44,400 bases of DNA from Nitrospirae bacterium JdFR-81 (GTDB taxonomy: Bacteria > Nitrospirota > Thermodesulfovibrionia > UBA6902). Of the stretch, positions 27,973-39,847 are shown piece by piece (position 1 is the stretch's first letter; each line of letters begins with the position of its first letter). The notes under the pieces are model-generated. The model saw only the letters and a list, made by a program, of their open reading frames with translations, had not been told where the DNA came from and searched no databases. Location of the stretch: the NCBI GenBank assembly GCA_002011735.1, contig MTOQ01000087.1, forward strand, positions 1 to 44,400. The letters are read 5' to 3'. The translations under genes and the position numbers were made by a program.

Positions 27973-28275
27973 ATGAAGCTTGGCATACTTGTCAATACCC
28001 AGAGACACGCAAAGGAACTTGTCGGCATCACAAAGGCAGCCCTTGCAAAGGGGCATGAGGTGATCATTTTTATCATGGATGAGGGGGAATACCTCCTCAG
28101 CAACCAGGATGTTGTCAACCTCTGTAATGAGCCCAATGTCAGAATGGCCTACTGTGACCACAATGCCCAGAAACTGGGCATATCAAAAGAGGGGATCCCT
28201 GATAAGATCACATGTGGCAGTCAGTTTGATAATGCCACAATGAATCACGAGGCTGACAGGGTTATTGTCTTATAA
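27973..28275 (+). CDS. DsrE/TusD-family sulfur-relay protein
   Basis: This is a 100-residue cytoplasmic protein with the DsrE fold pattern: KLGILVNTQRHAKELVGITKAALAKGHEVIIFIMDEGEYLL, then YCDHNAQKLGIS, where the Cys sits exactly as the conserved sulfur-carrying Cys of TusD/DsrE (C-x3-A-x2-x-G). A second Cys occurs in TCGSQFDNATM. DsrE-type proteins accept and donate persulfide sulfur, usually with TusA or DsrC partners. AGGAGG six bases before ATG 27973 makes the start secure. It lies between the rhodanese and a tiny DsrH-like gene, the same E-then-H order as in dsrEFH/tusDCB, but with the F/C member missing. Confidence 0.85.
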   Translation: MKLGILVNTQRHAKELVGITKAALAKGHEVIIFIMDEGEYLLSNQDVVNLCNEPNVRMAYCDHNAQKLGISKEGIPDKITCGSQFDNATMNHEADRVIVL

Positions 28276-30273: not shown

Positions 30274-30316
30274 AGCCCCCACGATGCCTTAAAAGGAACA
30301 GTGCATCTGCCATTAT

Positions 30317-30332
30317 TGTTCCATTTGGGACA
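30317..30332. promoter_or_regulatory. candidate enhancer (UAS) for the NtrC-type regulator, yedE side
   Basis: TGTTCCATTTGGGACA fits TGTYC-N6-GGACA. The same pattern occurs at 36762-36777 beside the response regulator gene. Its centre is about 75 bases upstream of the start predicted from the -24/-12 element, a normal distance for a sigma-54 enhancer. Confidence 0.6.
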
Positions 30333-30372
30333 GTAGAGTGCCATTTACACCCTTATATCAGTGGATTTTGGC

Positions 30373-30388
30373 TGGCATGGACTTTGCG
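30373..30388 (+). promoter_or_regulatory. sigma-54 (-24/-12) promoter of yedE
   Basis: TGGCATG-GACT-TTGC matches TGGCACG-N4-TTGCW except for one T and the last base. GG (30374-30375) and GC (30386-30387) have the obligatory spacing. The start would be near 30399, before the AAAGGAGG at 30410-30417. Confidence 0.7.
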
Positions 30389-30422
30389 TAAGGAAGGGAT
30401 AGGTTACCTAAAGGAGGCTGCA

Positions 30423-31856
30423 TTGGATACAGGCACAAGAAAGAGGCGCTTTTGGGCACTTGCAATAGTAGGCTTCTTCTCATTAATCAGCATATCTACA
30501 TATACCTATAACGAAAACTATATCTACCTCTCGGTCTATCTCTGGTTCGGTTTTATCTATGGCATGTGCCTCCAATATGGGAGGTTCTGCTTCGCCTCTG
30601 CATTCAGGGACCTCTTTGCCGTGGGGGTGCCGAGGATGGCAGTGGGGATAATGATAGCGATAATATTCTTTGCCTTTGTCTCTGCCTTTGTAACCGCAAC
30701 AGGTATAAGCACCTTCCACCCCTCACCTGTCAGCCTCCACTCGGTGATAGCAGGACTGTTCTTTGGCATAGGCATGGTGTTTGCAGGAGGCTGTGCCTCG
30801 GGCTCCCTCTATAAGACAGGAGAGGGCAGTGGAACCGCCCTCCTTGTGGTGCTTTCTATAAGCCTCACCCAGTCGACATTCGTTGATATCGGCGGAGTCT
30901 TCAATAAATTGGTTCCACATTCATGGCGTGAATCGGCCCTCTCCAAGGGACTCCCTGATGCCATCAATGTTGGGGATGGATGGGTGGATCAGTATCTTGC
31001 AGGCTATGTCTGGAACCAGCCAATAACAACATTTGCAAAGATGTTAGGGCTTGACAATGAGAGCTTTGTCGGCGCCTATGTGGGCAACCTCCTTGTTGGG
31101 GTTGTCTTGCCTGCCCTGTTTCTTCTGACCATTGTATACATCCTCTTTGCCAAGAAGAGGTACGAGAAAGAGATCAGAAAGTTAAAGAATATCAGCACCC
31201 TTGGAATAAAGGATCACCTTTCGGGCTTCTGGAGCATGATCCTCTCTTCAAAAAGGACGGCTATCGCAGGACTCATCCTTGGCATCGCTGCAGGGCTCCA
31301 TATGTTTGTGATCGAGGGGATGCGGATAAAGTTTGGGGTGAGGAATGCAGGCGAGATACTCAAGAGGATCGGCTTTGATTTCGGCCTCTCGGTCAGGGGT
31401 ACGGTCTTTGATCCTGGCTACTGGTATGTGACAACACAGGAGGCCCAGTGGGTTGGATGGGTCTTCCAGAAGATGGGATGGAACCACATGGACAACATAT
31501 TCTTTGGTTACATCAATGGCATACCCAACCCTGCTTTTAACCCTGCTGACTGGATGTCCCTTGCGCTTATCGGAGGGGCTGCGGTCATGGCATTGCTGAA
31601 TAACGAGTTCAAGTTCAAGATGCCAACAAAGGAGCTTGCTATATGGGCAATGGTCGGTGGCTTCTTCATGGGCATCGGATCGAGGCTTGGACTCGGATGT
31701 AATGTCGGTGCATTCTTTGTCAGGGTTGCCAATGGTGATCCTGCAGGCTGGCTATTCGGCATAGGGATGATCGTTGGCGCCTATATCGGGGTTAAATTCT
31801 TCAACTGGTGGACAGAGAGGAAGATGGCAAAGGAACTGGAGGGAATGAATTTTTAG
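30423..31856 (+). CDS. yedE: YeeE/YedE-family thiosulfate or sulfur transporter
   Basis: From TTG 30423 this is a 477-residue membrane protein with two YeeE/YedE halves. Each half carries conserved Cys/Gly motifs: CLQYGRFCFASAFRD, then GGCASGSLYKTGEGSG in the first, and GLGCNVGAFFVR in the second. The family moves thiosulfate or sulfane sulfur into the cell through cysteine-lined channels (YeeE) and often pairs with TusA or DsrE. The start is set by AAAGGAGG five bases before TTG. The longer frame from TTG 30384 would overlap the sigma-54 promoter. Two single-pass mini-proteins and a secreted rhodanese follow on the same strand. About 12 membrane segments are visible, with a soluble linker near 245-275. 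Confidence 0.9.
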   Translation: MDTGTRKRRFWALAIVGFFSLISISTYTYNENYIYLSVYLWFGFIYGMCLQYGRFCFASAFRDLFAVGVPRMAVGIMIAIIFFAFVSAFVTATGISTFHPSPVSLHSVIAGLFFGIGMVFAGGCASGSLYKTGEGSGTALLVVLSISLTQSTFVDIGGVFNKLVPHSWRESALSKGLPDAINVGDGWVDQYLAGYVWNQPITTFAKMLGLDNESFVGAYVGNLLVGVVLPALFLLTIVYILFAKKRYEKEIRKLKNISTLGIKDHLSGFWSMILSSKRTAIAGLILGIAAGLHMFVIEGMRIKFGVRNAGEILKRIGFDFGLSVRGTVFDPGYWYVTTQEAQWVGWVFQKMGWNHMDNIFFGYINGIPNPAFNPADWMSLALIGGAAVMALLNNEFKFKMPTKELAIWAMVGGFFMGIGSRLGLGCNVGAFFVRVANGDPAGWLFGIGMIVGAYIGVKFFNWWTERKMAKELEGMNF

Positions 31857-31866
31857 AGGTGAGATC

Positions 31867-32052
31867 ATGGACAGGTTCTTCCTGGTGATAGTCCTGATAG
31901 TCGGCCTGTTTGTTGGATATCTGATAGGCTACAGCATCCCTCCGTTTATAGAGGCAGGCGTATTCACCGGAAGGCAGGAGAAGGGGGTCAAGGTGATGAT
32001 TGATGAGAAGGTGAAGAAGTACTATGAGAAGCTCTATGAGGAAGAGGAGTGA
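31867..32052 (+). CDS. single-pass mini-membrane protein 1
   Basis: This is a 61-residue protein with one N-terminal membrane helix (residues 4-24, LVIVLIVGLFVGYLIGYSI) and a soluble, charged tail ending KKYYEKLYEEEE. It starts ten bases after yedE with AGAGGTGA before ATG 31867. Its tail resembles that of the next gene (YERYFKELYKEE), so the two are probably diverged duplicates. I recall two hypothetical small genes as regular members of yedE-tusA-dsrE clusters in sulfur disproportionators; this pair may be those genes. No function is known. Confidence 0.75.
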   Translation: MDRFFLVIVLIVGLFVGYLIGYSIPPFIEAGVFTGRQEKGVKVMIDEKVKKYYEKLYEEEE

Positions 32053-32258
32053 ACAAGTGGCTCATGATACTCATAATAATCTGTGTGATCCTCTCCTTTC
32101 TGGTCGGCTTTAACATATCTAAAAGGTCAGGTATCCAGCCTGGCTACTTTGAGAAGGCCGAGGCACCTGCATATGGGGTCGGGGGAGAGGAGAAGCTGGC
32201 CCCTGGTCTGGGTGAAGAGTACGAGAGATACTTTAAGGAGTTATACAAGGAGGAGTGA
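32049..32258 (+). CDS. single-pass mini-membrane protein 2
   Basis: This is a 69-residue protein with an N-terminal membrane helix (residues 3-22) and a tail with the same closing pattern (EEYERYFKELYKEE) as the previous gene. The GTG start overlaps the preceding TGA (GTGA), showing tight translational coupling and suggesting a fixed one-to-one ratio with mini-protein 1. The central YFEKAEAPAYGVGGEEKLAPGLG is Gly/Ala/Pro-rich and probably flexible. It has no cysteines. A role as a YedE or rhodanese accessory subunit is inference from position only. Confidence 0.72.
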   Translation: MNKWLMILIIICVILSFLVGFNISKRSGIQPGYFEKAEAPAYGVGGEEKLAPGLGEEYERYFKELYKEE

Positions 32259-32324
32259 AAGGGGGTGAGAGGGGAGTTATTGGTGGAGGGTCTCAGAGAA
32301 TCTAATAAAAGGAGGTGAAGAGGG

Positions 32325-33374
32325 ATGTATAAGAGATATTCCATATTACTCCTGATAGTGGCCTTTTTGCTTTCGCTCACGGGCTATTCCCAGGCTGCTC
32401 AATGGGCAAATCCAGAATTGCTCCTTTCAGCAAAGGAGCTCAAGAAGCACATCGGTGATCCCCAGTGGGTCATCCTTGACTGCAGGGATCTGAAGTACTA
32501 TGCAAAAGGGCATATACCAGGAGCCATCAGTCTTGGTAAGAGGTGCAAAAAGGCACTGAGGGACAGCACCTCGAGGGTATTCAAGGACATATCAAAATAC
32601 GAAAGGCTTCTTGGAAAGGTCGGTATTGACAACAACACCCATGTGGTTGTCTACGGAGAACACATAAAGACAGACACAATAAAGGATGCAGCCGTGGCCT
32701 TCTGGATACTTGAATACCTCGGACATGACAAGGTGCATATGCTCAATGGTGGTATCGATGCGTGGGTGAATGCAGGCTACAGCCTCACGCCCGAGCCCAC
32801 CATCCTGCCACAGAAGAGGTTCAAGGCCCGTGTGGTAAAGAGCAGATACGCCTCGACAGAGGAGATAGTAGAGATAGCAACAGGCAAGAAGAAGGGTGTC
32901 CAGCTCATTGACGCAAGGACTCCAAAGGAGCATAAAGGGGCTGATATAAGGGCGATAAAGGGCGGTCACATCCCCAATACCACCATAAACATATCACACA
33001 AGGACACCTTTGACAGGTCAAAGGACCCAGAGACCGGAAAGATGAGAGACAATGGCTTTCTCTCTCCTGACAGGGTTGCAGAGTTCTATAAGACACTTGA
33101 CAAAAACAAGCGGACAATCGCATACTGCCAGACAGGCACACGCTCAACACTGACCTATCTTGAGCTCAGGCTCCTGGGCTTTAAAGACCCTGCAAACTAT
33201 GATGATTCCTGGAGGGTCTATGGCTCATCATTCGAGAACTATCCTGTTGCCGCACCCAATGGTCCACAGTATTATAACTTCGCAAAGGTGAACAAGACGC
33301 TCAAGAAACTCAAGAAGAAGATCAAGGAGCTGGAGAAGAAGATAGAGGAGCTGACATCCAAGGAAAAGGAATAG
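32325..33374 (+). CDS. secreted two-domain rhodanese with C-terminal coiled coil
   Basis: This is a 349-residue exported sulfurtransferase (signal MYKRYSILLLIVAFLLSLTGYSQA). The N-terminal rhodanese domain (30-155) has YGEHIK in place of a catalytic loop, but a Cys in LDCRDL and one in GKRCKK. The C-terminal domain (170-300) has the active Cys268 in CQTGTRST. Residues 315-349 are a Lys/Glu-rich coiled coil (KKLKKKIKELEKKIEELTSKE) absent from the first rhodanese, which may mediate oligomerisation or docking to the two helical mini-proteins. AAGGAGG precedes ATG 32325 by a rather long spacing. It follows yedE and the mini-proteins, so all four are likely one sigma-54 transcript. Confidence 0.9.
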   Translation: MYKRYSILLLIVAFLLSLTGYSQAAQWANPELLLSAKELKKHIGDPQWVILDCRDLKYYAKGHIPGAISLGKRCKKALRDSTSRVFKDISKYERLLGKVGIDNNTHVVVYGEHIKTDTIKDAAVAFWILEYLGHDKVHMLNGGIDAWVNAGYSLTPEPTILPQKRFKARVVKSRYASTEEIVEIATGKKKGVQLIDARTPKEHKGADIRAIKGGHIPNTTINISHKDTFDRSKDPETGKMRDNGFLSPDRVAEFYKTLDKNKRTIAYCQTGTRSTLTYLELRLLGFKDPANYDDSWRVYGSSFENYPVAAPNGPQYYNFAKVNKTLKKLKKKIKELEKKIEELTSKEKE

Positions 33375-33399
33375 TCAGGTTATAGGAGAAGGGATAGAG

Positions 33400-33436
33400 G
33401 ATAAGAGGTCAGGACTTTTCGTCCTGGCCTCTTATC
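33400..33436. terminator. long perfect stem-loop between rhodanese 2 and the stress protein gene
   Basis: GATAAGAGGTCAGGAC and GTCCTGGCCTCTTATC form a 16-pair stem (one G-U) around TTTTC. No U-run follows on either strand; the plus strand continues TAAAAAGGAG, the ribosome-binding site of the next gene. It may act as an mRNA-processing or stabilising element or as an imperfect terminator. Confidence 0.5.
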
Positions 33437-33451
33437 TAAAAAGGAGAGACG

Positions 33452-33907
33452 ATGAAGAGGGTTTTGATAGCCGTTGATGAGACAAGAGGGACAAAGGATA
33501 TGTTTGAAAAGGTGGAGGGGTTCTGCAGGTGTATAACTCCTGAACAGATCATCCTTATCTATGTGGAGAAGATTGAGGGCTTCTCATTAATGGATGAGAT
33601 GCTCGGTGATGCAGAGATGTCAACGCTCAGGGAGGAGATCGACAAGACAGAGGTCAAGGAGGCCCTTGATAAAAGGGCGAGGGCGGTGCTTGAGTATTAC
33701 AGGGGACGGATCGGGACATCACAGCCTGTAAAGACCATTATAAGGACAGGCCATCCTGCAGAGGAGATATTGAGGTGTGCCGAGGAAGAGGATGTCGAGC
33801 TTATCATCATCGGCACAAGGGGGAGCAGGGTCGGCAGATTCTTCATAGGGAGTGTCAGTAGAGAGGTTGTGAATAATTCAAAGGTGCCTGTCCTCCTGGT
33901 AAAGTAA
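33452..33907 (+). CDS. universal stress protein (UspA family)
   Basis: This 151-residue single UspA domain has the ATP-binding signature near the C terminus: IIIGTRGSRVGRFFIGSVSREVVNNSKVPVLLVK, i.e. the G-x2-G-x9-G-S pattern, and the N-terminal RVLIAVDETRGT Asp. Nucleotide binding is therefore likely. USPs of this type are small cytoplasmic regulators, often next to transporters. AAGGAG lies before ATG 33452. It converges on the DUF-type membrane gene with only three bases between the stop codons. Confidence 0.93.
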   Translation: MKRVLIAVDETRGTKDMFEKVEGFCRCITPEQIILIYVEKIEGFSLMDEMLGDAEMSTLREEIDKTEVKEALDKRARAVLEYYRGRIGTSQPVKTIIRTGHPAEEILRCAEEEDVELIIIGTRGSRVGRFFIGSVSREVVNNSKVPVLLVK

Positions 33908-33910
33908 GGA

Positions 33911-34276
33911 TCAGAGTTTAACGCCCCGTTCCTTGAGTGACTTTATATCCAGGCCAAAGGCATCGAGGAACTGGAATATCCTGTTCCGTGGAGGAATGTT
34001 GTAAATAAAGACTCCTGCGGTGGCCACATAGGTTATCAACTTTGTGGCAGGTGGCAGGCTGAACACCGTAATTATGCCCAGCAGAAAGAAGGCACCAGAG
34101 AGATAGAGCATCCTCTCATAGGCCGTATCAAGGAGCCTCTTAAACTCAAAAAAAGTGGCCTTTTCAAGCTCAGGGAATGAATCAGGCCCTACCCTTTCAA
34201 GCCCCTTCTTTCTGACCACATACATATATAGGAGGATGAACCCGGTCAAGAAATATATGGTTGCTTCTGTAGTCAT
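33911..34276 (-). CDS. small membrane protein, last gene of the exporter operon
   Basis: This is a 121-residue protein with an N-terminal membrane helix (about 3-22), an amphipathic middle (residues 30-55) and two more helices (about 57-73 and 78-95), followed by a soluble tail. I do not recognise a family. It follows the YeiH-type gene by 58 bases, behind a 12-pair stem-loop that may reduce its expression. No clear Shine-Dalgarno precedes ATG 34276. Its position makes an accessory role for the exporter plausible but unproven. Confidence 0.68.
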   Translation of the reverse strand: MTTEATIYFLTGFILLYMYVVRKKGLERVGPDSFPELEKATFFEFKRLLDTAYERMLYLSGAFFLLGIITVFSLPPATKLITYVATAGVFIYNIPPRNRIFQFLDAFGLDIKSLKERGVKL

Positions 34277-34296
34277 CTCTAATTTTTATTAAAGGA

Positions 34297-34324
34297 GAAG
34301 GGGGTGTAGGATTACACCCCCTTC
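34297..34324 (-). terminator. 12-pair intra-operon stem-loop
   Basis: GAAGGGGGTGTA pairs perfectly with TACACCCCCTTC around GGAT. On the minus strand it is followed by TCCTTTAATAAAAATT, without a strict U-run. It probably gives partial termination or 3' protection of the exporter mRNA. Confidence 0.5.
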
Positions 34325-34334
34325 AACGCCCTCC

Positions 34335-35930
34335 CTATGGCTTTACATACCCTGCTATATTCGGTATCTGCATGCCATGGTGGAATAGATAGGCGATAAG
34401 CGCTGCAACAGGTATTATGAAGAAGAAGAGGGAGACGAAATAGACCCATACCATCTTCCCAAACTGGGCCTCTCTGAGCTTCTTGAAGTCCGTAATGATA
34501 CCAAGGCTCATAAAGGTCAGCATGAAGAACAGCTTTCTCATGCCCTTCTCTATCGGGACGGCCCCTGCCTTTACTGACTTCAGGAACGGCATCGCCTCAG
34601 GTGCGCCTGACTGTCCAGGACCGAAATACAGGGCGAGCAGGAAGAACCAGCAGAAGAAATATCCAAGGACGAACTTCGGGAACCTGTGCCAGACCTCTGA
34701 GGCAGGAACCTTCTCGCCCGGCCTTCGTTCTATCCGATACACCCATACCATGGCAAGCACAAAGGCCCATATCCCTATGAACATGTCGATCCACACCTTT
34801 GTCATAACCGCACTTGAGGTTATAATACCAGCCGGCCATTTTACAGCCCCGTTCGTCTCAACCTCTATCTTGTTCCGCATGAACTCATCCATCAGTTCTC
34901 CTGCGGCTGCATCAGCCCCGTCTGTCTTGACAGACATGCCCATGGCAGCACCGGCCACAAGGGGGTCTTTTGTGGTGGGCCATACATGGGTATAAAACCC
35001 TGGCAGTATGATGAGCTCGATCACCGCCCATACGACCACAAGAGCAGAGACCATGATCGAGACGACCGGCTTTGCCCTCACAGCACCACCTGTTGCCACA
35101 GCGGCTGAGACACCACAGATGGATATGCCTGAGCCGAGCACAGCTGCTGTCTTGCGCGGGAGGTTGAAGATCTTCCTGGAGATTATATACACGCCAGGCC
35201 AGAATATCATATATGCGACTATGGTTGCTGCAGCACCTGCAACAAAGAGTTCAAAGGTGAGCCCTGCTGCCTCCTTCCCAAGCTTCTGGGACATACCGGC
35301 AAGCTTGATGGGCAGGTATCCAAGCTTCACACCAAGTGTAACGATAGCGGTCTTGATATACCATTCGGGCTTTGCCGCCTCACTCAGGAATCTGGCAAAA
35401 CCCCTGAAGAAGTTCCCTATGATCAGGCCAACTATCAGTGCGAGTATAAATGAACCACCTCCACCGAGTGAGAGTGCAAAGTTCAGACCATACTGGCGCA
35501 TATTCAGCTTATTGGCCGCTATGAATGCGTGGTGCCCTATAAACCAGCAGGCTATGGTGAGGAAGTAGATGATCGTCCAGCCCACAAAGAACCTCTTCAC
35601 GTTCCACTTCATCGCACCAGCACCAATGCATGTGGCTATGGTGAATATCACATATGTCCATATCACGCTCCACCAGCCAAGACCCTTATAAAACCCCTTG
35701 GCGGTCACGCTGTACTTCTTTCCCAGGGCATAAAAGGCGTGTCCGATGGCGCCCTTCCCCTCTGGCGGCGGACTGAAGACCCACTTTGTTGGATAGGTGA
35801 TCCAGCCCACAAGATCAACCCCTGCAAGGGTGAAGAGGGAGAGAAAGAAGAAACCAACACCCAGCCATACAGCCCACCAGTCCTCTGTGGTCAGCATCCC
35901 TGTATACCATCTCCTCTCGGGTTGAGCCAT
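34335..35930 (-). CDS. YeiH/PF03601-family putative sulfate or sulfite exporter
   Basis: From ATG 35930 this is a 531-residue polytopic protein, about 190 residues longer than typical YeiH proteins. The family core is recognisable: LSLGGGGSFILALIVGLIIGNF, IKTAIVTLGVKLGYLPIKLAGMS, AAVLGSGISICGVSAAVATGGAVRAKP and FMLTFMSLGIITDFKKLREAQFGK. The extra length is an N-terminal set of membrane helices (residues 20-150) and a long central loop (GMSVKTDGADAAAGELMDEF). The family is annotated as a sulfate exporter mostly by association; direct proof of substrate is thin. Export of sulfate or sulfite would suit a disproportionating or thiosulfate-using cell. AAAGGAGG stands six bases before the ATG. The operon is preceded by a consensus sigma-54 promoter. 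Confidence 0.87.
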   Translation of the reverse strand: MAQPERRWYTGMLTTEDWWAVWLGVGFFFLSLFTLAGVDLVGWITYPTKWVFSPPPEGKGAIGHAFYALGKKYSVTAKGFYKGLGWWSVIWTYVIFTIATCIGAGAMKWNVKRFFVGWTIIYFLTIACWFIGHHAFIAANKLNMRQYGLNFALSLGGGGSFILALIVGLIIGNFFRGFARFLSEAAKPEWYIKTAIVTLGVKLGYLPIKLAGMSQKLGKEAAGLTFELFVAGAAATIVAYMIFWPGVYIISRKIFNLPRKTAAVLGSGISICGVSAAVATGGAVRAKPVVSIMVSALVVVWAVIELIILPGFYTHVWPTTKDPLVAGAAMGMSVKTDGADAAAGELMDEFMRNKIEVETNGAVKWPAGIITSSAVMTKVWIDMFIGIWAFVLAMVWVYRIERRPGEKVPASEVWHRFPKFVLGYFFCWFFLLALYFGPGQSGAPEAMPFLKSVKAGAVPIEKGMRKLFFMLTFMSLGIITDFKKLREAQFGKMVWVYFVSLFFFIIPVAALIAYLFHHGMQIPNIAGYVKP

Positions 35931-35968
35931 ATCGCACCTCCTTTCCTTTGAGATTCGGTCTCCCCACC

Positions 35969-36220
35969 TCATCCCTCTATCTCCACCACCCTGTCAAAAT
36001 AGTGGTGGGTATACTGCCGTATCCATTGAGGGATGGAGGAGCTGTCAAACTCCATAATAACCCTCACCCTCTCACCCTGCCCGATCTCTCCCCGCTCCCT
36101 GAGGAGTTCTCCCATCCTGATATCAAGCTCATCAAGCGTGGGTGAAGAGAGTGTCATTGATTCGTTCCTTACAACCCATTCCCTTCCGTTGTGGGTGATC
36201 TTGAACACCAGCCTCTTCAT
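35969..36220 (-). CDS. 83-residue small cytoplasmic protein of the exporter operon
   Basis: From ATG 36220 this protein begins MKRLVFKITHNGREWVVRNESMTLSSPTLDELDIRMGELLRERG and ends YTHHYFDRVVEIEG: a compact alpha/beta mini-domain with no cysteines or membrane segment. It resembles, from memory, the small DUF5395-type proteins, but I am not certain. It starts two bases after the preceding stop (TGATCATG), so it depends on coupled translation, having no Shine-Dalgarno of its own. A longer frame to 36325 overlaps the upstream gene and is rejected. Function unknown. Confidence 0.7.
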   Translation of the reverse strand: MKRLVFKITHNGREWVVRNESMTLSSPTLDELDIRMGELLRERGEIGQGERVRVIMEFDSSSIPQWIRQYTHHYFDRVVEIEG

Positions 36221-36222
36221 GA

Positions 36223-36423
36223 TCAGTTGAATACAGAGGTGGGGACCACAAGCAGGCCGATTATCAGGGCGATAATCGCTATCACGAATGACCAGAGGAC
36301 GAGCTTTGTCTCGACCGGATCCCACTCCTCAGCGCCTGCGAGCACATCTTCGGCCTCAAGCGCCTCACCGGTGAGGGAACCTGTCCCTGATATCTCCTTC
36401 TTTTGTTTTACTTCTTCGGCCAT
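36223..36423 (-). CDS. 66-residue tail-anchored membrane protein
   Basis: The first 40 residues are acidic and soluble (EEVKQKKEISGTGSLTGEALEAEDVLAGAEEWDPVE), and residues 43-63 form one membrane helix (LVLWSFVIAIIALIIGLLVVP) close to the C terminus. AAGGAGGTAAGGAGA precedes ATG 36423. It is the second gene of the sigma-54 operon. Single-helix subunits are common accessory parts of transport complexes, which is the best guess here. Confidence 0.72.
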   Translation of the reverse strand: MAEEVKQKKEISGTGSLTGEALEAEDVLAGAEEWDPVETKLVLWSFVIAIIALIIGLLVVPTSVFN

Positions 36424-36437
36424 TCTCCTTACCTCCT

Positions 36438-36593
36438 TTACTCAAGGATTTTTCTCTGCCTCCTCCCTATCACCTCCCTTCCAGGCAGGATAGACAGGGG
36501 TCGCCCCTGGATGAAATTGCAGGAGACATCTATAGGGCTATAGGTGGGATTGAGGGGTGGGAAAGGGGTCTGTCTATCCTGAATATTATTCAT
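36438..36593 (-). CDS. 51-residue small protein, first gene of the exporter operon
   Basis: ATG 36593 stands five bases after AAGGAGG and opens a 51-codon frame. The product begins MNNIQDRQTPFPPLNPTYSP, contains one Cys (DVSCNF) and ends with a basic stretch (GRRQRKILE). It is soluble and rich in Pro and Ile. The stop merges with the Shine-Dalgarno of the next gene. The Shine-Dalgarno is within a stem-loop (36597-36611), and the frame contains both arms of a 12-base inverted repeat. No family is recognised; it may be a leader peptide or a real small protein. Confidence 0.5.
   Translation of the reverse strand: MNNIQDRQTPFPPLNPTYSPIDVSCNFIQGRPLSILPGREVIGRRQRKILE
36486..36581. repeat. 12-base inverted repeat with inner hairpin
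   Basis: CAGGATAGACAG (36486-36497) is the exact reverse complement of CTGTCTATCCTG (36570-36581). Inside lies CAGGGG-TCG-CCCCTG (36495-36509), which shares CAG with the outer arm, so the long-range and local pairings exclude one another. This is the shape of a switchable leader RNA in the sigma-54 transcript. Confidence 0.5.
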
Positions 36594-36596
36594 CTC

Positions 36597-36611
36597 CCCC
36601 TCCTTGAGGGG
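36597..36611 (-). promoter_or_regulatory. hairpin sequestering the ribosome-binding site of the 51-residue gene
   Basis: On the minus strand CCCCTC-AAG-GAGGGG is a six-pair hairpin whose loop and 3' arm are the AAGGAGG Shine-Dalgarno before ATG 36593. Folding would hide it from the ribosome, and melting or ribosome movement would expose it. Confidence 0.5.
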
Positions 36612-36674
36612 ATCACCTACTTATAAGATTACTCAAAAGATACCAAATGTCAAGGTAAAATCCACCAATTTTAT

Positions 36675-36690
36675 AGCAAGTATCGTGCCA
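36675..36690 (-). promoter_or_regulatory. consensus sigma-54 promoter of the exporter operon
   Basis: On the minus strand TGGCACG-ATAC-TTGCT matches the -24/-12 consensus at every defined position. The start would be near 36664, giving a 71-base leader to the 51-residue gene and about 240 bases to the membrane protein gene. Confidence 0.85.
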
Positions 36691-36761
36691 TCATGACATG
36701 GCCACAAATCCCTTCTCCAGGGCAGGATATTGTCCTGAATCGTCCTCTCCATGATCGGCCC

Positions 36762-36777
36762 TGTCCATTTTGGGACA
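36762..36777. promoter_or_regulatory. candidate enhancer (UAS) for the NtrC-type regulator, exporter side
   Basis: TGTCCATTTTGGGACA fits TGTYC-N6-GGACA, as does 30317-30332. Its centre is about 106 bases upstream of the exporter start and about 50 bases before the histidine kinase gene, so the regulator may also control itself. A second dyad, CAGGATATTGTCCTG, lies at 36723-36737. Together with the sigma-54 promoter and leader, this accounts for most of the 36424-36818 interval. Confidence 0.6.
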
Positions 36778-36818: not shown

Positions 36819-38501
36819 ATGAGCCCTTCTTTCAGGCTCAGGGACAAGATGGACTGGATGCTCTATCACATCCTTGAGGAGTCCCTGATAGCGATTATAA
36901 GTATAGTCATCGCTCTGAGGAGCCTCGTCTCATCAAGATCAGGACACCTTACAGGAGAGGTCAGAAGCAGGCTCTTCCTCATCGGTTCGGCCTTCATCCT
37001 GCTCGGTATCAACAGCGCGGTTCATGCATTCATCCATGCAAACAGGCTAAACGAGAACCTCCTGTATCAGACACTCCTTGGCTACTGCCTTGGCCTCCTG
37101 ACCCTGATAGTTGCGGTCTCATCGGAGAAGCCGTGGACCAAGAAGCCCATGCCCTTTCTCTACATCCCCCTCCTCCTGCTCCTGTATCCAGGCATATACA
37201 CCTCCTTCCCCCTGTTTGGGGAGTTCAGGCCACTTGTATGGATCGTGATAGCCTACCTCTCGGGTATTGTATGTATGCTCTATATCTCTGCCTATTATCG
37301 CACAAGGGCCGGAAGATACCTCTTCTCTTCCTTTGGCCATGCCCTCATCTGCACCTCTGCCATCATGCTCTTCTTCCCTGCATCAATAGGGTCAAGACCC
37401 TGGATATATGGGCACCTGTTAAGACCGCTCGGTTTTATAACCCTCTTCTTCAGCATGAGGCGTGAGGATCTCACAAAGCTGACCGGCAGCATCCTCTACA
37501 AGGCCCTCACTGCATTCAGTCTGCTTGCCGCGGTCCCGTTATTTGTATATGGATTCTTTGTGTTTTATGAGAATATCCATCCCATCAACTTTATTGGAAG
37601 GAACTTTATAGTCTTTGCCCTTGTCCTGACAACACTCATGTCAGCACTCATATTCGGGCTTGGCCTTATCATAAGGCTTGTAAGGCCAATCCTGCTCCTC
37701 AAGGATTCGGTGAGTGGCCTCGTAGAGAGGGGACTGAATGAGAAGATCGAGATAAAGAGCAATGATGAGATAGGTGAGCTCTCCCGTGCATACAATGAGA
37801 TGGTGGTAAAGTTGCGCCAGTCGATCGCAGAACAGGACAGACTGAGCAGGCTTGCCGCCACAGGGGAACTCTCTGCAACCCTGGCCCATGAGATAAAGAA
37901 TCCGCTCAATGCCATCTCTGTTGCAGCAGCCTATATCAAGGAGCACTACAAGGGGAAGCTCATCAGGGAGTTTATAAAGATCATCCAGAATGAGGCATCG
38001 AGGATAAACAAGCTGACCACCTCCCTCCTGAACTTTGCAAAGCCTGTGAGGCCTGAGCTTGCAGCCTCCAACATAAATAACCTCGTCAGAGAGACCGTCT
38101 CACTCCTGAGACAGGAGTCACAGGAGAACGAGGTGGAGATAAGGGTTGAGACGGACGACAGTATCCCCCCTTTTAATTTTGACTATAACCAGATAAAGCA
38201 GGTGCTCCTAAACCTCATCATAAACTCTTTTGATGCCGTGGATGGTGGAGGGTGGGTCAAGATACAGACAAGGTCATCCAACGGGAACGTACTCCTGTCT
38301 GTTGAGGACAATGGCAGGGGGATACCACCCGAAAACCTTAAGAATATATTCAACCCATTCTTCACCACAAAGACGCACGGGACAGGCCTGGGGCTTGCCA
38401 TCTCAAAGAAGATCGCCAAGGAGCATGGAGGTGATATACTGATCGAGAGTGTGCCATCAAAGGGGAGCAAATTCACACTCCTGCTGCCTTTAAAGAGATG
38501 A
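36819..38501 (+). CDS. membrane sensor histidine kinase (NtrB-like partner)
   Basis: This is a 560-residue kinase. Residues 14-215 hold seven membrane helices forming an unclassified membrane-embedded sensor. Two more helices (about 229-250 and 262-288) lead into a HAMP domain (288-340, SVSGLVERGLNEKIEIKSNDEIGELSRAYNEMV). HisKA follows with His357 in ATLAHEIKNPLNAI, then HATPase_c with N box NLIINSFDAV, G1 VEDNGRGIP and G2 HGTGLGLAISKKIAKEHGG. A membrane-buried sensor suggests a signal from the membrane or a transported species. ATG 36819 and ATG 36849 are both possible starts. The stop overlaps the response regulator start (ATGA), so the two form an operon. Confidence 0.93.
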   Translation: MSPSFRLRDKMDWMLYHILEESLIAIISIVIALRSLVSSRSGHLTGEVRSRLFLIGSAFILLGINSAVHAFIHANRLNENLLYQTLLGYCLGLLTLIVAVSSEKPWTKKPMPFLYIPLLLLLYPGIYTSFPLFGEFRPLVWIVIAYLSGIVCMLYISAYYRTRAGRYLFSSFGHALICTSAIMLFFPASIGSRPWIYGHLLRPLGFITLFFSMRREDLTKLTGSILYKALTAFSLLAAVPLFVYGFFVFYENIHPINFIGRNFIVFALVLTTLMSALIFGLGLIIRLVRPILLLKDSVSGLVERGLNEKIEIKSNDEIGELSRAYNEMVVKLRQSIAEQDRLSRLAATGELSATLAHEIKNPLNAISVAAAYIKEHYKGKLIREFIKIIQNEASRINKLTTSLLNFAKPVRPELAASNINNLVRETVSLLRQESQENEVEIRVETDDSIPPFNFDYNQIKQVLLNLIINSFDAVDGGGWVKIQTRSSNGNVLLSVEDNGRGIPPENLKNIFNPFFTTKTHGTGLGLAISKKIAKEHGGDILIESVPSKGSKFTLLLPLKR

Positions 38502-39847
38502 GATACAAGATACTGATAGTGGAGGATGAGGTCAGCTCACTGAAGGTGCTATCCACGGCACTCAAGGGTGAGGAATTCGATGTCGAGACCTCAACCACTG
38601 CCGAGGACGCACTCAAGATGATAAACGGTGACCATTATGACCTCGTTATATCAGACTATAAACTGCCAGGGATGAACGGAGAGGATCTCCTTGAGAGGAT
38701 AAGGCTGAAGAACCCCCATATCCCTGTCATATTACTTACGGCCTACGGGACGATCGACCGTGCCGTCCAGGCCATGAGAAAGGGGGCCTATACATATCTC
38801 ACCAAGCCCGTGAATCTCAATGTCCTTGCATCAACGGTAAGGGAGGCCCTGAGGGAGAGGGCACTGGAGTTCCCTGAGCGACAGCAATTCCTGAATATCA
38901 TCGGAAAGTCAAAGCCGATGCAGGAGGTCTTCTCCATGATCCAGAGGGTCAGCAAGACCGAGGCCAGTGTCCTGATACTGGGAGAGAGCGGGACAGGCAA
39001 GGAACTGGTTGCAAGGGCCATCCATTACACATCCCTGAGGTCAGACAAGCCATTCATCCCCATAGACTGCACCACCATCCCTGTGGAGCTCATGGAGAGT
39101 GAGCTGTTTGGATATGAGAAGGGGGCCTTTACATGCGCGTATACTAACAAGATAGGCCTGATCGAGATGGCAGAAGGTGGAACGGTCTTCTTTGATGAGA
39201 TTGGAGATCTCGACTTCACGCTCCAGAAGAAACTCCTGAGGTTCCTGCAGGAGAAGAAGTTCCACAGACTCGGTGGCAAGACTGAATTGAGTGCCGATGT
39301 GCGTGTGCTCACGGCAACAAACAAGAACATAGAAGAGGCGGTTGAGAAGGGAGAGTTCAGGGCAGACCTCTATTACAGGCTCAATGTGATCACGATTAAC
39401 ATGCCACCCCTTCGAGAAAGGAGGGATGATATCCCGCTGCTTGCATCCCATTTTCTTGAGGAATACAGCAAGAAGAACAAGAAGGACATACGTGGTTTTG
39501 ACCCACAGGTGATGGACATACTGATGAACTATGACTGGCCAGGGAATGTGAGGGAGCTTGAGAATCTGATAGAGAGGGCGGTGATCCTCTGTCCATACGA
39601 CCAGATCACCATGGAATGCCTGCCCCGCAAGTTGAGGGAGATGGATCAGGAAGAGGATCTGGAGGGAGAAGACCTGAACCTCGTAGAGACGGAGAAGAGG
39701 GTTATACTCAAGGCCCTTAACAAGACATCATGGAACCAGTCACAGGCCGCGAGACTGCTTGGGATCACACGGAAACAGCTGAGGACAAGGATGAAGAATC
39801 TGGGCCTGCTGGGTGACAAGGATAATGCGCCTGATAAGGACGGTTAA
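38498..39847 (+). CDS. NtrC-family sigma-54-dependent response regulator with GAFTCA variant
   Basis: This 449-residue regulator has a receiver with phospho-acceptor Asp53 (LVISDYKLPGMNG), an AAA+ domain with Walker A GESGTGKE (162-169) and Walker B VFFDEIGDL (230-238), and a Fis-type helix-turn-helix (WNQSQAARLLGITRKQLRTRMKNLGL). The sigma-54 contact loop reads GAFTCA (209-214) instead of GAFTGA, a Gly to Cys change caused by TGC at 39134-39136. Its partner kinase is encoded just upstream. Two sigma-54 promoters with a shared upstream palindrome in the window are its likely targets (exporter operon and yedE operon). The stop shares bases with the convergent phosphatase gene. Confidence 0.95.
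   Translation: MRYKILIVEDEVSSLKVLSTALKGEEFDVETSTTAEDALKMINGDHYDLVISDYKLPGMNGEDLLERIRLKNPHIPVILLTAYGTIDRAVQAMRKGAYTYLTKPVNLNVLASTVREALRERALEFPERQQFLNIIGKSKPMQEVFSMIQRVSKTEASVLILGESGTGKELVARAIHYTSLRSDKPFIPIDCTTIPVELMESELFGYEKGAFTCAYTNKIGLIEMAEGGTVFFDEIGDLDFTLQKKLLRFLQEKKFHRLGGKTELSADVRVLTATNKNIEEAVEKGEFRADLYYRLNVITINMPPLRERRDDIPLLASHFLEEYSKKNKKDIRGFDPQVMDILMNYDWPGNVRELENLIERAVILCPYDQITMECLPRKLREMDQEEDLEGEDLNLVETEKRVILKALNKTSWNQSQAARLLGITRKQLRTRMKNLGLLGDKDNAPDKDG

Follow-up and report, generated by a model that had tools for sequence, protein, structure and literature searches.

A stretch of 44,400 nucleotides of contig MTOQ01000087.1 (the window), belonging to the 2.05-megabase (Mb) genome of Nitrospirae bacterium JdFR-81, an anaerobic member of the Nitrospirota, harbours two short palindromes, each upstream of a sigma-54 promoter, and, next to the second of them, the genes of a two-component pair, a histidine kinase with its NtrC-type response regulator. 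Judging from sequence comparisons, this adjacent kinase-regulator pair very probably controls a two-promoter sigma-54 regulon, which would combine sulfur import and trafficking (the yedE operon) with anion export (the YeiH-type operon) by way of paired palindromes. An initial annotation of this DNA reported two palindromes sharing TGTYC-N6-GGACA, and both are present where it placed them. The distances of 75 and 106 bases given to the two promoters were reproduced when counted from the palindrome centre to the predicted start (∼75 base pairs (bp) on the yedE side and ∼106 bp on the YeiH side), and the second palindrome indeed adjoins the kinase-regulator genes, lying 42 bp from the kinase gene, which is on the opposite strand to the YeiH-type operon. 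Both partner sites listed below were absent from that annotation and were added in the present analysis. The sites and promoter boxes, with their scores, are as follows:

30317-30332, no strand assigned: primary site of the yedE operon, TGTTCCATTTGGGACA, the best-scoring in the window (matrix score 22.3)
30285-30300, no strand assigned: weaker partner site on the yedE side, TGCCTTAAAAGGAACA, score 7.0, 32 bp upstream of the primary site
30373-30388, plus strand: sigma-54 (-24/-12) box of the yedE operon, TGGCATGGACTTTGCG, score 14.9, kept upstream of orthologs
36762-36777, no strand assigned: primary site of the YeiH-type operon, TGTCCATTTTGGGACA, reading TGTCCCAAAATGGACA on the minus strand, the second-best in the window (20.8)
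36731-36746, no strand assigned: weak partner half-site on the YeiH side, reading AGGACGATTCAGGACA on the minus strand, score 2.2, offset 31 bp
36675-36690, minus strand: sigma-54 box of the YeiH-type operon, TGGCACGATACTTGCT, score 18.6

Taken by itself, the bare pattern is weak evidence. With one mismatch allowed, TGTYC-N6-GGACA has 11 matches in the window against 6.1 expected, a number equalled in 9 of 100 shuffles, and the exact palindrome occurs at 10 positions of the genome, which is below the count of the reversed control. This lack of enrichment in window and genome is what favours a chance likeness of two short palindromes. The composite with a sigma-54 box, on the other hand, is strong evidence. 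A search of the whole genome for such a box with the relaxed palindrome TGTYY-N6-RRACA 30-90 bp upstream of it returned two matches, both of them the window promoters, and none for the reversed control. No further genome match appeared when the spacing was widened to 90-150 bp, and the other eight genome positions of the palindrome have no nearby sigma-54 box scoring 13.5 or more. The initial annotation had named occurrence at random positions genome-wide as the outcome that would speak against a regulon; once a sigma-54 promoter is required, no such scatter is seen. Furthermore, a weight matrix built only from sites of another phylum (Desulfobulbales) ranks the two window palindromes first (22.6 and 18.6, the next being 12.8), and neither the top nor the second score was reached in any of 60 mononucleotide shuffles. 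The composite, matrix and cross-phylum tests all contradict a chance likeness, which is extremely improbable and was rejected on the grounds that the palindrome is conserved upstream of yedE orthologs.

These orthologs, found in Nitrospirota and Desulfobacterota, are 70-80% identical to the window YedE, and those in genomes G004, G007, G011, G044 and G048 retain the palindrome together with a sigma-54-like box. Scanning of the YedE alignment against public genomes yielded 80 loci. Of the 36 loci from Nitrospirota and Desulfobacterota, 30 carry the composite upstream of yedE; one locus counted among the 36 is labelled Rokubacteria, yet has the regulator and a weaker site. Not one of 42 loci from Alpha-, Beta- and Gammaproteobacteria and Rokubacteria carries it there, and 500-bp windows drawn at random from these loci give a background of 0.8%, part of it made up of other true sites. 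Class-wide, the composite is present in 50 of 231 genomes, compared with 7 genomes for the reversed control. The search beside -24/-12 elements of this genome and its relatives, which the initial annotation had suggested as a check, is in favour of the motif. Since yedE paralogs of the same class at 51-56% identity have no site, the association is with the window's type of YedE and not with YedE at large.

The sites occur in pairs. In a matrix scan of 36 promoters, the best second site was offset by 31 bp in 22, by 32 bp in 13 and by 41 bp in one, meaning that 35 of the 36 have a partner at exactly 31 or 32 bp, whereas random positions reach such a score at a rate of 0.0005. The consensus reads TGTCC(C)-N4-(G)GGACA, the distance to the partner amounts to three helical turns, and in nearly all cases the sites lie 29-178 bp upstream of the -24 element. 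Such a layout, with a couple of dimer sites that share a face of the helix and precede the -24 element, is usual for activators of the NtrC type. Palindromes fit dimeric repressors too, and one site (locus L059) stands within ∼60 bp of the gene start, so that sites of a repressor or of a one-component sulfur sensor acting alongside sigma-54 had to be considered. This explanation was rejected, because sigma-54 promoters require an enhancer-binding activator and because of the paired spacing and the position upstream of -24; in the loci that were read, the surroundings of yedE showed no conserved gene for a one-component regulator, and we regard such a repressor as very unlikely.

The candidate activator is encoded in the two-component operon adjoining the second palindrome:

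36819-38501, plus strand: histidine kinase, consisting of a multi-helix membrane sensor domain without a Pfam family, followed by HAMP, HisKA and HATPase domains
38498-39847, plus strand: NtrC-type response regulator with receiver, sigma-54 AAA+ and Fis helix-turn-helix (HTH) domains, recognition helix LGITRKQLRTRMKNL and loop GAFTCA

Full-length orthologs of the kinase exist in both phyla. The regulator comprises a receiver (PF00072, E=4e-28) with an invariant aligned phosphoacceptor D53, an AAA+ sigma-54 activation domain (PF00158, E=2e-68) and a C-terminal Fis-type HTH (PF02954, E=2e-14), while the sigma-54 gene rpoN has one genome match (PF04552, E=3e-62, at G000:C16). Of the NCBIfam equivalog cut-offs (NtrC, AtoC, ZraR, NtrX and others), none is reached by the regulator, the best being ntrC with 439 bits versus 559. 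The loop that contacts sigma-54 has the form GAFTCA in 11 regulators of this group, from Nitrospirota and Desulfobacterota, and the form GAFTGA in 15.

Several lines of evidence connect this regulator with the palindrome. Its recognition helix (RKQLRT) recurs as LGI[ST]RKQLRTKM in the regulators of palindrome-bearing genomes, and in many Nitrospirota and Desulfobulbales (Desulfobacterota) loci a same-helix regulator gene is found 4-8 kilobases from yedE; in G064 and G115, the kinase-regulator orthologs adjoin both the palindrome and yedE. Among ten whole genomes checked, a close regulator homolog was detected in 7 of 7 from the palindrome-bearing side and in 0 of 3 without the palindrome. At the scale of the class, the regulator is present in 37 of the 50 composite genomes (odds 17.8, P=9e-16, Fisher's test not corrected for phylogeny); the co-occurrence persists by genus (P=6e-9), and for genomes matched by the reversed control P=0.39. 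In G001 and G055, the regulators beside YeiH have another helix, and those YeiH operons are devoid of the palindrome. A covarying palindrome was also sought near RRQLRTKM-type regulators, and none with paired spacing was found. The initial proposal of an uncharacterised two-component regulon is in this way supported by conservation in two phyla, gene neighbourhood, the common recognition helix and genome-wide co-occurrence.

Some observations nevertheless weigh against the control of both promoters by the adjacent pair. The contact loop of the regulator is GAFTCA rather than GAFTGA, the partner sites of the window score below those of most relatives, and the closest relatives of the window YeiH (77-89% identity) lack the palindrome. 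Moreover, 25 regulator-positive genomes have no composite match, 13 composite genomes have no regulator at the threshold used, and the Fisher P values ignore phylogeny, so that these numbers are indicative. Since the genome encodes 35 NtrC-type regulator matches, the assignment to the adjacent regulator rests on neighbourhood, helix and co-occurrence. The palindromes might accordingly be enhancers of another NtrC-type regulator, while the adjacent pair would act on different genes, an explanation to which the 35 candidates and the 13 composite-positive genomes without a close ortholog lend some weight. However, two of these 13 exceptions (G115 and G221) are cut by contig ends, the different-helix regulators beside YeiH accompany absence of the palindrome, and the common helix, the neighbourhood conserved in two phyla and the co-occurrence all speak for the adjacent regulator. 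Control by another regulator therefore seems unlikely.

The sequence itself shows the sites, promoters and genes, their conservation and the co-occurrence, whereas phosphorylation, binding, activation and substrates are inferred. Under control by the adjacent pair, the following course of events may be envisaged. Through its membrane domain, the kinase would sense a cue related to sulfur or to redox state, the nature of the cue being a guess, and would phosphorylate the NtrC-type regulator. The latter would bind the paired palindromes and, as an AAA+ oligomer, drive sigma-54 polymerase at both promoters. Transcription from the yedE promoter would then bring sulfane sulfur or thiosulfate inward, with subsequent transfer by the rhodanese, through the products of these genes:

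30423-31856, plus strand: YeeE/YedE-family sulfur transporter, yedE (PF04143, E=2e-39)
31867-32052, plus strand: small membrane protein 1, without a Pfam match, kept beside yedE
32049-32258, plus strand: small membrane protein 2, without a Pfam match, kept beside yedE
32325-33374, plus strand: two-domain rhodanese (PF00581) with a signal-peptide-like N-terminus
33452-33907, plus strand: universal stress protein, Usp (PF00582), retained in the cluster

The promoter on the YeiH side would in turn serve four genes, probably for the export of an oxidised sulfur anion:

36223-36423, minus strand: small membrane protein whose gene opens the operon, 77-85% identical in two genomes, where it is upstream of DUF5395-YeiH
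35969-36220, minus strand: DUF5395 protein (PF17373, E=2e-26)
34335-35930, minus strand: YeiH-type membrane protein, putative anion exporter (PF03601, E=2e-17)
33911-34276, minus strand: small membrane protein whose gene closes the operon, kept beside YeiH in L128 and L241

The window YedE does not reach the curated cut-off of the TsuA thiosulfate transporter (106 bits versus 400), and the YeiH-type protein falls short of the YeiH sulfate exporter model TIGR00698 (31 bits versus a cut-off of 232.6), matching the broader PF03601 alone. In characterised bacteria, YeeE/YedE-family proteins are reported to import sulfane sulfur or thiosulfate (PMC11073785, PMC11582611). A dsrE-like gene (PF02635) is located near yedE at 27973-28275; in the window, no tusA was seen next to yedE, whereas many ortholog loci contain it.

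Counted over the loci, the genes preceded by the composite are yedE (34), a DsrE/F-like gene of 90 amino acids (8), rhodanese (8) and tusA-type genes (7), as well as, in f13 genomes, a Usp gene ahead of TauE-like and complex-I-like genes (4); to these come a gene for a membrane protein (3) and one for a kinase (1). Rhodanese orthologs in other loci have a palindrome and a sigma-54 promoter of their own. The initial annotation had the regulon span sulfur uptake and YeiH-type export. Its core is supported, with the qualification that YeiH looks like a lineage-specific recruit: the window YeiH gene was apparently brought into the regulon in its own lineage, as suggested by the palindrome-free relatives mentioned above. 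The link of PF03601 exporters to the regulon is nonetheless recurrent, because exporters of another subfamily also carry upstream palindromes; a clear sigma-54 box accompanies them in G044, and in L059, L220, L234 and L251 no box with the usual spacing stands at a suitable position. One YeiH relative (89% identity, L127:7519-14404) is found together with DUF5395, a different two-component system of its own and a sigma-54 box, with no palindrome. As for the further suggestion that the system perhaps regulates itself, it is unsupported in the window, where the 42-bp gap between palindrome and kinase gene leaves no room for a kinase-facing sigma-54 promoter, although kinase-facing boxes do occur in some Desulfobulbales loci.

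The sensor half of the kinase (36819-37800) showed no Pfam family beyond HAMP and no relative in the PDB, and its structural model, of moderate confidence, gave no significant fold match, only generic seven-helix matches. Residues H17, E20, H69, H73, H199 and R202 are invariant in an 11-member alignment spanning two phyla. In three loci (L220:3575-6842, L213:2921-6458 and L167:4104-7365), a same-helix regulator is accompanied by a different kinase and a PhnD-like protein, the latter with tandem PF12974 in L220. Other Nitrospirota thus appear to have swapped the sensor while the DNA-binding half stayed constant. By analogy, the PhnD-like protein beside a same-helix regulator hints at sulfur oxyanions as the input; the window kinase itself has no PhnD-like periplasmic sensor, such proteins being found in other genomes only. 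It may tentatively be suggested, with rather more doubt than confidence, that an ancient switch shared by the phyla Nitrospirota and Desulfobacterota, made up of this regulator and the paired palindrome, governs intermediate-sulfur metabolism (disproportionation of sulfur or thiosulfate, or sulfate reduction run in reverse), and that its DNA-binding half is constant and its sensor, membrane or PhnD-like, is exchanged.

Among known systems, NtrBC, ZraSR and AtoSC resemble that of the window in having a kinase, a receiver-AAA+-Fis regulator, paired palindromic upstream sites and -24/-12 promoters. The window system differs from them in a regulator below the NCBIfam cut-offs, an unassigned membrane sensor, the GAFTCA loop, sulfur-gene targets and a consensus of its own. 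TspSR and the tetH sigma-54 system of Acidithiobacillus are also sigma-54 two-component systems beside sulfur-oxidation genes (PMC5093147); this is a likeness of kind, drawn from their description, as phylum, genes and targets are different. In A. caldus, the binding site of RsrSR is AACACCTGTTACACCTGTT, and the promoter controlled by RsrSR is of the -10/-35 type (PMC5093147). A resemblance to TtrSR and ThsSR exists in other Nitrospirota, where the kinase partnered with a same-helix regulator lies next to a tandem PhnD-like (PF12974) protein; TtrS uses the PhnD-like fold (PMC5408782), whereas the sensor of the window kinase is of the membrane type.

In gene content, the window overlaps with the YTD cluster (yedE, tusA, dsrE and conserved hypotheticals), which has been put forward as marking sulfur disproportionation (PMC8780430, PMC12998232), although its role is under dispute (PMC13293266). 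Both have YedE, DsrE-like and small proteins and occur in the same phyla; unlike the YTD cluster, that of the window adds a rhodanese and Usp, and no tusA was seen beside its yedE. No regulator is described in the YTD-cluster literature searched, and the word stem 'regulat' is absent from a 2026 study of the YTD genes. Likewise, no prior account of this regulon was found in the sulfur-disproportionation literature searched or in the D. vulgaris sigma-54 regulome paper, the text of which has neither TGTCC nor GGACA. An NtrC-family two-component sigma-54 regulon is a well-known kind of system, and this particular one is most likely undescribed in the literature searched. A proteomic study of Desulfolithobacter dissulfuricans saw a response regulator (GF1_10760) and two Usp proteins whose locus tags lie nearby (GF1_10730 and GF1_10800) solely while thiosulfate was being disproportionated (PMC9751629). 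The corresponding locus was sought through the family of G231, where no match could be recognised as this species, so that these proteomic data are a lead with a possible, unproven tie to the regulon.

The control of sulfur import and disproportionation genes in anaerobes is essentially undescribed, and the interest of the regulon lies in its cross-phylum conservation and its testability. A defined regulator and operator would allow pathway operons to be predicted in uncultured Nitrospirota and Desulfobacterota, and the inducing sulfur compound becomes testable by a reporter. The operator could also tie orphan genes to the pathway, such as those for small membrane proteins, DUF5395, PF03601 exporters and radical SAM neighbours.

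Two further arrangements were observed in other loci. In L213, L217, L220, L236, L237 and L247, the interval between yedE and rhodanese is occupied by a set conserved across two phyla: a flavin adenine dinucleotide (FAD) oxidoreductase, two radical SAM proteins, one B12-binding and the other of the SPASM type, and a GT2. In L182 (9376-9931) and its relatives L183, L185 and L193, all from f13 genomes, a double palindrome and a sigma-54 box stand before the Usp/TauE-like/complex-I-like operon.

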